Assembly: GCA_017631955.1 (NCBI GenBank) | Contig: JAGBSJ010000013.1 | Location: forward strand, 1 to 56,668 | Source of the DNA: Clostridia bacterium | GTDB taxonomy: Bacteria; Bacillota; Clostridia; Oscillospirales; Acutalibacteraceae | Direction: 5' to 3' | DNA: 56,668 bases | In this document: piece by piece, positions 22,768 to 27,623 of the stretch | Layout: each line of letters begins with the position of its first letter | Position numbering within the stretch: position 1 is the first letter of the stretch | The notes under the pieces: model-generated | What the model was told of the DNA's origin: nothing | Seen by the model: the letters and a program-made list of their open reading frames with translations, nothing else | The model's database searches: none | Program-made: the position numbers and the translations under genes

Positions 22768-23820
22768 ATGATAGAACGTAGAAAAAGTCGTGTCGTAACG
22801 GCGGGTAATGTAAAAATCGGTGGTAATAACCCAATTTCTGTACAGTCAATGCTTAATGTAGTGGCGGAAGATGCAGAAGGTAATGTTAGACAAGCCGTTG
22901 AATTAGAAAAAGCTGGTTGTCAGATAATCCGCCTTACTGTGCCAAATAAAGAGGCGGTAAAAACTCTTTATGCGGTGAAAAATGCGGTTAGTATTCCTGT
23001 GGTTGCAGATATTCACTTTGATTACCGTTGTGCACTTGAAAGTGTAATGGCAGGTGTTGATAAAATCAGAATTAATCCCGGTAATATTGGTGATGATGAC
23101 AAAGTGCGTGCGGTTGCAGATGCTTGTCGTCTTCATAATGTGCCAATTCGTATTGGTGTGAATTCTGGCTCTCTTGAAAAGAACTTACTTGTAAAATACG
23201 GTTCGCCAACACCTGAAGCAATGGCGGAAAGTGCCATGTATCATATCGGACTTTTAGAAAAATTTGATTTTAATGACATTGTTGTTTCAATCAAATCGTC
23301 AGATGTTCAGAAAATGGTTAAAGCATATCGTATTGTGGCAGATATGTGTGATTACCCATTGCATTTAGGCGTAACTGAAGCAGGTACTCATAATATGGCA
23401 CTTGTAAAATCGAGTATCGGTATCGGCTCACTTCTTCTTGACGGTATTGGCGATACAATCCGAGTTTCTATGACCGCTGACCCTGTTAATGAAGTAAAAG
23501 CGGGTTATGATATACTTAAAGGTGCAGGTATTAAAACGGACTGTGCACAAATCGTATCTTGTCCAACTTGTGGCAGAACAAAAATTGATTTAATTGGTCT
23601 TGCTGAAAAAGTTGAGAAAGCACTTGCAAACTACAATAAGCCAATCAAAGTTGCGGTTATGGGTTGTGTAGTAAACGGCCCGGGTGAAGCAAAAGAAGCA
23701 GATATTGGTGTAGCAGGTGGCGACGGTTGCGGTGTTATTTTCAAAAATGGTGAAGTACTTAAAAAAGTAAATGAAAACGAAATAGTAGAAGAATTGTTAA
23801 AAGAAATAGAAAAATTATAA
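22768..23820 (+). CDS. ispG: 4-hydroxy-3-methylbut-2-enyl diphosphate synthase (flavodoxin/ferredoxin)
   Basis: A 350-residue [4Fe-4S] enzyme of the MEP route. ISVQSMLN replaces the more usual VQSMTNT, then VADIHFDYRCAL and RINPGNIG; cluster cysteines lie in SCPTCGRT (about 265) and MGCVVNGPGEAK (about 297). The length is normal for the short bacterial form. The GGTG ribosome site is weak and the distance to rseP is 13 bases. Confidence 0.96.
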   Translation: MIERRKSRVVTAGNVKIGGNNPISVQSMLNVVAEDAEGNVRQAVELEKAGCQIIRLTVPNKEAVKTLYAVKNAVSIPVVADIHFDYRCALESVMAGVDKIRINPGNIGDDDKVRAVADACRLHNVPIRIGVNSGSLEKNLLVKYGSPTPEAMAESAMYHIGLLEKFDFNDIVVSIKSSDVQKMVKAYRIVADMCDYPLHLGVTEAGTHNMALVKSSIGIGSLLLDGIGDTIRVSMTADPVNEVKAGYDILKGAGIKTDCAQIVSCPTCGRTKIDLIGLAEKVEKALANYNKPIKVAVMGCVVNGPGEAKEADIGVAGGDGCGVIFKNGEVLKKVNENEIVEELLKEIEKL

Positions 23821-23831
23821 TGGTGTAATAT

Positions 23832-26800
23832 ATGACAACAGTTAAAATGCTTTTTGGTGAGTTGTTCAAGTGGGACCACTATCTTGATTTTGCAGTTGCA
23901 GAAGTTGTAAGATTTGCAGTTTCAAGAGAAAAAAATTCCGCTACCCTCACTATAAAACCATACAGAAAAATTGATGAAAACAGAATAAAAGAACTTGAAA
24001 CTTCTCTTTCACAGTTAACAAATGTTAAGCTAAATATTGTTTGCGATGAATCTCGAAGCGGATTTACCACAGAATATGCAAATTTAGTTATCAATATTTT
24101 AAGAGAACGTGTAGCAGTAGCAAACGGTTATTTTAATAACGCTGATTATAAAGTTGAAAATGGCGAATTCAAAATTCTTCTTAAAAAAGGCGGAAAAGAC
24201 ATTCTTTGCGCATCAAATGTTGATGATGAAATCGCAAAAATTATAAGAGAAATTTTTGGCGTAAATCTCACGGTAACATTCCATCAATACGATTTTGATG
24301 TTGAAATTGCTCTTGACTCAATGCAAAAACAGATGGAAGAATTACATAATCGTCAGATGGTGGAAGAAAATCCTCATGCGGTAGTCCCTAAAAGCGAGAA
24401 GCAAGCACATATTGTAAAAGACGGTATTCCTCTTTACCTTGAAACACAAAAAGCGATTTATGGAAATATTATTAGAACATCAAAGTTGCAGAAACTTTGT
24501 GATATTTCAATCGAAAGTGGCGCGGTAGCAGTATGGGGCGAGATTTTCTCACTTGAAGTCCGTACAACTCGTGATGGTAGAAATAATATTATTAATTTCA
24601 ATATTACAGATAAAACTTACTCTTATACAGTTAAGATTTTTGAAACAGTAGCAAATGCAAAATCCCTGCTTGGTGCGTTAAAAGAGGGTGAAACTGTAAT
24701 TGTTTACGGTAAAGTTAGTTATGATAAATATTCAGGTGAGAATATTATCTCTGCAACTTCTGTAAATACAGTAAAACCAATTAAAAAGCAAGATAATGCA
24801 GAAGTTAAGCGTGTTGAACTTCACCTGCATACTAATATGTCTGATATGGACGGTATGACTTCTGCCGACAAACTTGTAAAACGAGCAATTAGTTGGGGGC
24901 ACCCCGCTATTGCAATTACGGACCACGGTAATGCACAGGGTTACCCTGATGCTATGAAGGGCAAGGGCAAAGACGATATAAAACTTATCTATGGTGTTGA
25001 GGGTTATCTTATTGATGATATAGGGGAGCCCGAAACCCCTTGGGAAAAACTTCCCCGTTACCATATTATTTTGCTTGTGCAGAATAAAGTTGGTCTTAAA
25101 AATCTTTATAAACTTATTTCACTTTCTCATACAACATATTTCCACACAAGACCTTGTATTCCACGCTCAAAACTCAATGAGTTGCGAGAGGGTATTATTC
25201 TCGGCTCTGCTTGTGAAGCGGGCGAGTTAATCAAAGCAATCCTTTTTGAGAAAAGTGATGAAGAAATTCTTAAAATTGCAGATTATTATGACTATCTTGA
25301 AATTCAGCCAGATGGTAATAATATGTTTATGATTGACTCTCATTCTGACCCGAATGCTAAAAATCCTGACAGAAATAAAGAGTACAACAGAATTAAAACA
25401 CTTGAAGATATTCGTAACATCAACCGCAAGATTATACATATAGGCGATAAGCTCGGTAAACTTGTGTGCGCAACAGGTGACGTTCACTTTATGGACCCTG
25501 AAGATGCCGCATTCCGTGCAATTCTTATGGCAGGTAAGGGCTTTGATGATGCAGATAATCAAGCACCACTCTATTTTAAAACTACCGAAGAAATGCTTAA
25601 CGAGTTTGCATATTTAGGTGAAGATACTGCATACGAAGTTGTTGTTACAAACACAAACAAGATTGCAGATATGATTGAGCAGGTAAGACCTATTCCTGAG
25701 GGCACATTCCAACCATCAATTCCAGGTGCCGAAGAAGAACTTCGTCAGATTTGCTGGGACAAAGCAAAAGATTGGTATGGTGACCCTGTTCCAGAATATG
25801 TTGAAACACGACTTAATCGAGAACTTGATTCAATTATTGCAAATGGATTCGCAGTTCTTTATATTATCGCACAAAAACTTGTGTGGGACTCAGAAGCACA
25901 CGGTTATCACGTTGGTTCTCGTGGTTCAGTTGGTTCATCTTTCGTTGCAACAATGGCAGGTATTTCCGAAGTTAATCCGTTAGCACCTCACTATCGTTGT
26001 CCAGAATGTAAACACAGTGAATTCTTCTTGCATGGTGAATACGGTTCTGGTTTTGATATGCCACCAAAGAACTGCCCACATTGTGATATTCCAATGGTGC
26101 GTGACGGCCACGAAATTCCTTTCGAAACTTTCCTTGGTTTCCACGGCGATAAGGCACCCGATATCGACCTTAACTTCTCAGGTGATTATCAGGGTAATGC
26201 TCACAGATACACTGAAGAATTGTTCGGTCGTGACCATGTGTTCAAGGCGGGTACAATTGCAACAGTTGCTGACAAAACCGCTTATGGTTATGTTAAAAAA
26301 TACCTTGAAGAGCGTGGCAAAATTGTAACCCGCGCCGAAGAAGACCGACTTACAAAAGGTTGTACAGGCATTAAGCGTACAACAGGTCAGCATCCGGGCG
26401 GCATGGTTGTTGTTCCTAATGAATTTGATGTTTATGATTTTACTGCAGTTCAATTCCCTGCAAACGATACAACATCAGATATGGAAACAACTCACTTTGA
26501 CTTCCACTTTTTGCACGATACAATCTTAAAACTTGATATTCTCGGCCATGATGTGCCTACGCTTTATAAACATCTTGAAGATATGACAGGAATTCCTGTT
26601 ATGGATGTTGATGTGTGTGACCCGAAAATCGTTAGTTTGTGTACAAGTACAGAGGCGCTAGGAATTACACCTGACGATATTGGCGTACAGACAGGTACTC
26701 TCTCAATTCCTGAAATGGGTACAGACTTTGTTCGTGGTATGCTTATGGAAGCACAACCAAAATGTTTCTCTGACCTTTTACAGATTTCAGGACTTTCACA

Positions 26801-27623
26801 TGGTACTGACGTTTGGCTTGGTAATGCGCAGGAACTCATTAAAGACGGTACTTGCACAATTTCAGAGGTTATCGGTACTCGTGACAGTATTATGACATAT
26901 CTTATGCATAAGGGACTTGATTCAGGTCTTGCATTCAATATTATGGAAAAAACACGTAAAGGTATTGTTGCAAAAGTGGGCTTCCCTGAAGGTGCAGAGG
27001 ATGCAATGAAAGCGTGTAATGTCCCACAATGGTATATGGACTCTTGTCGTAAAATCAAGTATATGTTCCCTAAAGCACATGCGGCGGCTTATGTTATTGC
27101 GGCACTTCGTCTTGGTTGGTACAAAATCTACAGACCAACTGAATATTACACCGCATTCTTAACTGTCCGTGGCGGTGACCTTGACGCCGTTACAGTTTGT
27201 CAGGGCAGAGATGCAGTAAGACGCAAGATGGTTGAACTCCATGGTCCACTTAATGCGGAGCCAAAGGATAGAAAGCCAATGACCGCAAAAGAAAAAGACC
27301 AGTTTACAGCACTTCAGGTTGTAAACGAAATGATGGCGCGCGGTGTTGAACTTATGCCGGTTGATATTTATAAATCACGCGCATCTGAATATTACATAGA
27401 AGACGGAAAAATCAGAATGCCATTCTCAGCACTTTCAGGTGTTGGTGAAAATGCTGCAAAATCTATTGTGGCAGGCAGAGAAGAATGTGGTGCGGATTTC
27501 GTGTCAATTGATGATTTCCAAGCAAAAACAGGCGCATCAAGTGCCGTTGTAACTGCACTTAAAGAAATAGGTGCATTAAACGACCTTCCTGAAACCGCGC
27601 AGATTTCATTCTTTGGTTTTTAG
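23832..27623 (+). CDS. polC: DNA polymerase III PolC-type alpha subunit without the 3'-5' exonuclease domain
   Basis: The replicative polymerase of Firmicutes, here 1,263 residues against roughly 1,440 in Bacillus. An N-terminal domain (1-200) and an OB domain (about 215-320, AVWGEIFSLEVR) precede the PHP domain, which keeps HLHT (about 331) and ITDHGNAQG. In Bacillus PolC the DEDD exonuclease is inserted in PHP after the YGMEAYLVDD segment. Here YGVEGYLIDD runs straight into EPETPWEKLPRYHIILLV, with no DVETTG motif anywhere. The zinc finger (CPECKHSEF ... NCPHCD), the palm PDIDLNFSG (about 777) and the C-terminal active-site blocks are intact, so polymerase activity is expected while proofreading must come from PHP or another protein. 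It closes the uppS-polC operon. Confidence 0.95.
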   Translation: MTTVKMLFGELFKWDHYLDFAVAEVVRFAVSREKNSATLTIKPYRKIDENRIKELETSLSQLTNVKLNIVCDESRSGFTTEYANLVINILRERVAVANGYFNNADYKVENGEFKILLKKGGKDILCASNVDDEIAKIIREIFGVNLTVTFHQYDFDVEIALDSMQKQMEELHNRQMVEENPHAVVPKSEKQAHIVKDGIPLYLETQKAIYGNIIRTSKLQKLCDISIESGAVAVWGEIFSLEVRTTRDGRNNIINFNITDKTYSYTVKIFETVANAKSLLGALKEGETVIVYGKVSYDKYSGENIISATSVNTVKPIKKQDNAEVKRVELHLHTNMSDMDGMTSADKLVKRAISWGHPAIAITDHGNAQGYPDAMKGKGKDDIKLIYGVEGYLIDDIGEPETPWEKLPRYHIILLVQNKVGLKNLYKLISLSHTTYFHTRPCIPRSKLNELREGIILGSACEAGELIKAILFEKSDEEILKIADYYDYLEIQPDGNNMFMIDSHSDPNAKNPDRNKEYNRIKTLEDIRNINRKIIHIGDKLGKLVCATGDVHFMDPEDAAFRAILMAGKGFDDADNQAPLYFKTTEEMLNEFAYLGEDTAYEVVVTNTNKIADMIEQVRPIPEGTFQPSIPGAEEELRQICWDKAKDWYGDPVPEYVETRLNRELDSIIANGFAVLYIIAQKLVWDSEAHGYHVGSRGSVGSSFVATMAGISEVNPLAPHYRCPECKHSEFFLHGEYGSGFDMPPKNCPHCDIPMVRDGHEIPFETFLGFHGDKAPDIDLNFSGDYQGNAHRYTEELFGRDHVFKAGTIATVADKTAYGYVKKYLEERGKIVTRAEEDRLTKGCTGIKRTTGQHPGGMVVVPNEFDVYDFTAVQFPANDTTSDMETTHFDFHFLHDTILKLDILGHDVPTLYKHLEDMTGIPVMDVDVCDPKIVSLCTSTEALGITPDDIGVQTGTLSIPEMGTDFVRGMLMEAQPKCFSDLLQISGLSHGTDVWLGNAQELIKDGTCTISEVIGTRDSIMTYLMHKGLDSGLAFNIMEKTRKGIVAKVGFPEGAEDAMKACNVPQWYMDSCRKIKYMFPKAHAAAYVIAALRLGWYKIYRPTEYYTAFLTVRGGDLDAVTVCQGRDAVRRKMVELHGPLNAEPKDRKPMTAKEKDQFTALQVVNEMMARGVELMPVDIYKSRASEYYIEDGKIRMPFSALSGVGENAAKSIVAGREECGADFVSIDDFQAKTGASSAVVTALKEIGALNDLPETAQISFFGF

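Follow-up and report, generated by a model that had tools for sequence, protein, structure and literature searches.

A PolC without its exonuclease domain

The 56,668-nucleotide stretch of DNA from a gut-type clostridial bacterium analyzed here (the window) carries a full-length open reading frame on its forward strand, at 23832..27623, that encodes a PolC-type replicase of 1263 aa without an exonuclease domain; the coordinates and the PolC identity given in a first-pass annotation were exact. The PolC models PRK00448.1 (1482.3 bits, cut-off 873) and TIGR01405.1 (1337.6 bits, cut-off 1043.45) each match the protein in two stretches, the better of which begins directly after the exonuclease site. 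Ahead of the PHP domain, Pfam recognizes PolC N-terminal domain II (PF11490, 28.9 bits against a cut-off of 26.3) and an OB fold (27.5 bits against 27), both barely above threshold, and it also finds the palm, the fingers, and a helix-hairpin-helix motif. Specifically, the palm region (PF07733), with the catalytic residues D777, D779, and D902, lies at 25737..26546 and the helix-hairpin-helix motif (HHH_6) at 27342..27590, and at the C-terminus the string QISFF (27600..27614; all features on the forward strand) is a motif of the sliding-clamp-binding type. These attributes, by which we judged a protein to be of the PolC type, are all present; the attribute of the canonical exonuclease-bearing PolC, a DEDDh domain inserted in PHP, is absent.

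The PHP domain forms a single uninterrupted Pfam stretch (residues 329-492, 111.9 bits). Its first part (24816..24998) holds the ligands H331, H333, D340, and H365, with E390 next at 24999, and its second part (25062..25487) holds H411, C461, D550, and H552, of which D550 corresponds to an Asn (N743) in Geobacillus PolC. Between the two parts, the 11-residue bridge IGEPETPWEKL (25020..25052) takes the place of the exonuclease of other PolCs: YGVEGYLIDD, from residue 387 (nt 24990) on, is separated by 11 residues from PRYHIILLV, which begins at residue 408. The first-pass annotation had placed this jump and its start correctly, while miscounting the bridge as ten residues, and its figure of about 170 residues for the missing stretch was too small, as positions 391-409 comprise 19 residues in the window PolC versus 195-218 in exonuclease-bearing (exo-bearing) clostridial PolCs.

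The absence of the domain was confirmed in several ways. In addition to the unbroken PHP domain, no match to PF00929 (RNase_T) was found in the window PolC at E<=1, and a profile of the exonuclease stretches of 75 clostridial PolCs scored -1.0 bits on it, versus 325.6 and 266.3 bits on two exo-bearing controls. Across all window frames of at least 30 aa, the best profile hit had E=0.29. An exonuclease displaced to elsewhere in the protein or the window, as could have been the case, is rejected on these profile and Pfam results. The earlier statement that no D-x-E-T-T string occurs anywhere in the protein was incorrect, since DMETT stands at residues 883-887; this string falls within the polymerase part and is taken here as a chance occurrence.

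Directly upstream of polC lies an ispG-like gene at 22768..23820 (forward strand). The locus order is dxr-like, rseP-like, ispG-like, polC, and his-gene-like products. Within reach of the flanks, a tblastn comparison of the window neighbors against 15 named loci recovered the same order in three exo-less and 12 exo-bearing loci. Because the gene order is common to exo-bearing relatives, the window polC represents the usual chromosomal polC locus.

Distribution and repeated change of exonuclease state

The exo-less architecture is widespread among relatives. PolC matches were obtained in all 39 genomes of the genus, counting that of the window, and the match is unbroken across the exonuclease site in 38; in the remaining genome, contigs break at that site. 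The family sample of 150 genomes (149 at >=90% completeness plus the window's own) contained 48 exo-less and 88 exo-bearing genomes, two with matches too short to tell, and 12 without a PolC-scale match. In the order sample, PolC was exo-less in 8/8 genomes of family f2 and 3/5 of family f17, and for the class, at least 33 exo-less genomes were counted among the 200 matched in the sample, including 5/5 of f23 and 10/10 of f27 among the matches listed. These states were read from match tables, according to whether a match spans residue ~405 unbroken or starts there; the few that start somewhat earlier in frames >1350 aa, such as that of G411 (first matched residue 356), do not enter the exo-less count. 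Both states occur within family f17 and within a single genus, g12 (G150 and G049), whose rows, L075 and L201, are sisters in a 73-row tree.

This distribution settles whether an assembly or binning error could have produced the exo-less PolC. The window contig does come from an incomplete and fragmented genome (77.65% complete, 42 contigs). However, the polC frame is intact, and the recurrence of the architecture across the genus and in all listed genomes of f2, f23, and f27 excludes the assembly deletion at ~25.0 kb that the first-pass annotation had named as a possible pitfall; an artefact is thus refuted, with next to no probability left to it. The named records L035-L042 overlap genus genomes already counted and are not independent of them.

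We aligned the window protein with 204 fetched frames. Two pieces of the window (L003, L004) and five partial records (L047, L055, L061, L064, L066) were removed beforehand, L005 is the window itself, and L001, L002, and L057 yielded no PolC frame, L057 perhaps through its code. The trees further exclude two paralogs (L115, L127) as well as rows whose tree columns duplicate those of another row, among the latter several named loci that are the same contigs as genus loci. Among 194 distinct canonical PolCs, the stretch at 391-409 was sharply bimodal, with 9-39 residues in 120 proteins, 195-218 in 74, and no value between. D-x-E-T-T was found inside the insert in 75/75 exo-bearing rows. In a side observation, the PolC matches of two genomes (G008:C182 and G021:C40) are split at query residue 828/829 by ~28 extra polymerase-region residues, in a frame of 1511 aa.

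The exonuclease state has changed many times on the PolC trees. With FastTree, 17 changes were counted on the uncollapsed tree, and 15, 14, and 9 when branches with support under 90, 95, and 99, respectively, were collapsed. Labels shuffled on the uncollapsed tree gave a mean of 59 changes and a minimum of 50, far above the real count, and the state is thus both heritable and labile. IQ-TREE, applied to 73 chosen representatives, also gave 17 changes, of which starred branches force 14, although these stars are less reliable under the quick search used (LG+G4, SH-aLRT only). A single ancient loss passed down vertically is incompatible with the trees, in which the starred branches require 14 changes or more. 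Among the rows printed, the bridges vary by lineage in both length and letters and some flanking linker residues persist, as expected from separate excisions. The PolC tree itself is blind to gain versus loss; we infer that the changes were losses, since exo-bearing rows share a homologous insert at one and the same position.

The PHP site of clostridial PolCs

The first-pass annotation had reported metal-type PHP residues in the window PolC, and the site turned out to be complete, with all nine ligands intact. The same nine ligands (HHDHEHCDH) were read in 120/120 distinct exo-less PolCs and in 74/74 exo-bearing ones; further, the three palm aspartates were present in 120/120 exo-less PolCs and a clamp-type motif in 112/120. 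The window protein thereby carries the nine-ligand pattern HHDHEH[C/H]DH given for PHP-proofreading replicases (PMC12926913), the test used here for replicases of the Mycobacterium tuberculosis and Thermus DnaE1 type. Position 8 is Asp in the clostridial PolCs aligned and Asn in the solved PolC sequences 3f2b and 9qpc. In Geobacillus PolC, where this position is N743, no PHP exonuclease was detected (PMC3666897), and in M. tuberculosis DnaE1 the same kind of substitution, D226N, abolishes exonuclease activity (PMC5636811). The latter paper describes the PolC exonuclease as inserted in a loop lining the PHP site. From ligand 5 to ligand 6, the window PolC has 20 residues versus 22 in Thermus DnaE, the latter computed from the published residue numbers E72 and H95 (PMC3666897).

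Loss of the exonuclease might be expected to tighten constraint on PHP, and this was not found: across seven identity bins, at matched polymerase identity, PHP was equally or slightly less conserved in exo-less than in exo-bearing PolCs in 7/7. Exo-bearing PolCs have their ligands no less intact, such that this intactness is not a response to exonuclease loss; from these alignments it looks like a precondition for it. Both results weigh against the PHP-proofreading explanation proposed below.

Some genomes also carry accessory PolC paralogs (L115:1972-4500, L127:1757-4243, L231:446-3049, L232:1649-4228, and L233:3248-5677), in frames of 810-868 aa that are without the N-terminal, OB, and exonuclease parts and have a shortened C-terminal end. 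All five have lost 4-6 of the nine PHP ligands, position 8 included, while keeping the three palm aspartates. Neighbors of some of them include PD-(D/E)XK, WYL-regulator, DUF2779/Cas4-like, and PDC-S02-like genes, and similar proteins also appear in phage and plasmid listings, some of which are perhaps host contamination or ordinary PolC.

DnaE1, mismatch repair, and genomes without PolC

The window genome encodes a second alpha subunit, a DnaE whose PHP site has all nine ligands and which carries the clamp-type motif QIGFF; by these two features, rather than by a tree, we assign it to the DnaE1 group. A search with its first 394 residues found a match in 27 of 28 relatives (G047 had no DnaE match at E<=1e-60), and nine ligands were read in 25 of the 27 matches; the frame of G074 is without the part holding the first six positions, and that of G055 is degenerate. 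Specifically, the sole DnaE match found in G055 (L260) reads HHNDERYNY, and the exo-less PolC of the same genome (L107) keeps HHDHEHCDH. The mismatch repair gene mutS scored above its cut-off in 38/38 genomes examined, the window's included, and the lack of any difference among them leads us to reject its gain or loss as compensation for the missing exonuclease.

The 12 family genomes without a PolC-scale match (G046, G068, G073, G074, G084, G097, G100, G107, G123, G165, G166, and G184) appear to replicate with DnaE alone. Eleven have a single alpha-subunit match, and G100 has a second, weaker one; counting eight further genomes from the order and class, DnaE was present in 20/20 PolC-free genomes examined. 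This speaks for a reading in which DnaE1 is the main replicase and PolC serves special situations with little proofreading, such that its exonuclease became dispensable and some relatives then lost PolC. The complete PHP site and clamp-type motif of the window genome's DnaE1 are consistent with that role, which was already raised for DnaE1 in PMC3919608. However, the palm aspartates and PHP ligands of exo-less PolCs are invariant and their clamp-type motif is nearly always kept, unlike the accessory copies, in which ligand loss is the rule, and in G055 it is DnaE, not PolC, whose PHP site is broken. We therefore regard a subordinate PolC with little proofreading as unlikely.

Free DEDDh proteins as possible substitutes

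A further reading places proofreading in trans, on a separate DEDDh exonuclease such as the KapD-like protein of the window genome or a DnaE1-binding DnaQ-like one. Our survey of free exonucleases covered the RNase_T family. At E<=1, the window genome has one such match, a protein of 288 aa that is nearest to the KapD model and below its cut-off; a free DnaQ could also lie in the missing part of the genome, given its completeness. Within the genus, RNase_T matches are present in 38/39 genomes, and 20 of the 27 good ones have a single match. Against a substitute of this kind, RNase_T frames of 280-330 aa in family f1, classed by frame length with sequences inspected for the fetched ones only, are similarly common in exo-less (18/20) and exo-bearing genomes (15/20, with four more having one longer frame). 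Further free RNase_T matches in f1 are likewise spread over 6/20 exo-less genomes (seven with the only match of G041, which is of another type) and 5/20 exo-bearing ones. No RNase_T protein was matched at E<=0.001 in G127, an exo-less genome that is 99% complete and in which both polymerases retain nine ligands. G055 does have one RNase_T protein, in a frame of 283 aa, which counts against proofreading by PHP there.

In favor of action in trans, a free DEDDh protein was found in f17 in 2/2 exo-less genomes examined and in 0/2 exo-bearing ones. These proteins (L216:4707-5327, 177 aa, in G257; L217:4181-4798) adjoin a gene that we presume to be ispF-like. Their best matches among PolC exonuclease domains are to those of other families (42-44% identity), compared with 35-37% for f17 PolC, and an origin as a fission product of the f17 PolC is thus not supported. 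Also in favor, a conserved putative epsilon-binding surface is described on Firmicutes DnaE1 (PMC3919608). Across the genus, f1, and f17 surveys, no DnaQ-like protein consistently stands in for the lost domain. Replacement in trans may have occurred in places, for example in f17; as the explanation for the window PolC, we consider it decidedly improbable.

Relation to known systems and proposed explanation

The window PolC is a typical example of an exo-less variant that is known but uncharacterized. Timinskas et al. reported that 6% of PolCs, and 16% of PolC plus DnaE1 systems, are without Exo and that, except for one extra copy in Thermotogae, these occur only in Clostridia and Negativicutes; by the same account, PolC plus DnaE1 systems are apparently not experimentally characterized (PMC3919608). 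The architecture, the conserved PHP site, and the pairing with DnaE1 are the same in both, and no difference emerged among the features tested. Geobacillus kaustophilus PolC (3f2b, a 1041-aa chain matching without the exonuclease stretch) aligns over residues 222-1261 through OB, PHP, palm, and fingers. The native enzyme differs in that its PHP loop carries a DEDD exonuclease and its ligand 8 is Asn, with no PHP exonuclease detected (PMC3666897 and PMC5636811). The DnaE1 proteins of M. tuberculosis and Thermus share the nine-ligand PHP pattern, and the same mode of action is proposed here; they are of the DnaE type with another domain order, and it is for them that activity was demonstrated (PMC5636811 and PMC3666897).

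The first-pass annotation had listed the PHP domain, a separate DnaQ-like protein, or reduced proofreading as the ways in which this organism might manage. These were the right options, and the genomic evidence favors the PHP site, given the intact ligands in both PolC and DnaE1, the presence of mutS, a lone KapD-like RNase_T protein, and the similar frequency of that protein's size class in exo-bearing genomes. The ligand losses in the accessory PolC copies and the cases of G127 and G055 also speak for it. We therefore rate as modestly probable an explanation in which DEDDh was cleanly lost and proofreading is done by the PHP site of PolC together with DnaE1 and mismatch repair. The inserted exonuclease would have been cleanly lost from an ordinary chromosomal PolC, in one of many such clostridial losses, leaving one continuous PHP domain with a loop about as long as that of Thermus DnaE. 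Excision of misincorporated 3' ends would then fall to the metal-dependent nuclease in the PHP domain of PolC, in the manner of Mycobacterium and Thermus DnaE1, and a PHP-intact DnaE1 and MutS-dependent mismatch repair would assist it. We infer both this nuclease activity of exo-less PolC and its role in proofreading.

For clostridia at large, we give about even chances to the broader proposal that DEDDh is a dispensable module, excised at least nine and probably 14 or more times because clostridial PolC had kept a complete PHP site. In G127, the only proofreader candidates found would be PHP sites, and in G055 that of PolC would be the only intact replicase-borne one.

A count of independent exonuclease losses and a biochemical test of an exo-less PolC were both absent from the literature searched, which left subscription journals mostly outside. 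Further, a 2025 survey treated the RNase_T insertion as a defining feature of PolC, retaining only sequences with it (PMC11963600); under such a criterion, exo-less PolCs are left out and easily missed. Our results add the recurrence of the change, the exo-bearing sister rows, the survey of free RNase_T proteins, and the cases of G127 and G055. Exo-less PolCs can be paired with exo-bearing sisters from their own genus or family, and such pairs could be used to ask whether the PHP site of PolC has a proofreading role and what the DEDD exonuclease contributes. If the proposed explanation is true, exo-less clostridia would be natural exonuclease-deletion strains for a PHP-proofreading replicase.
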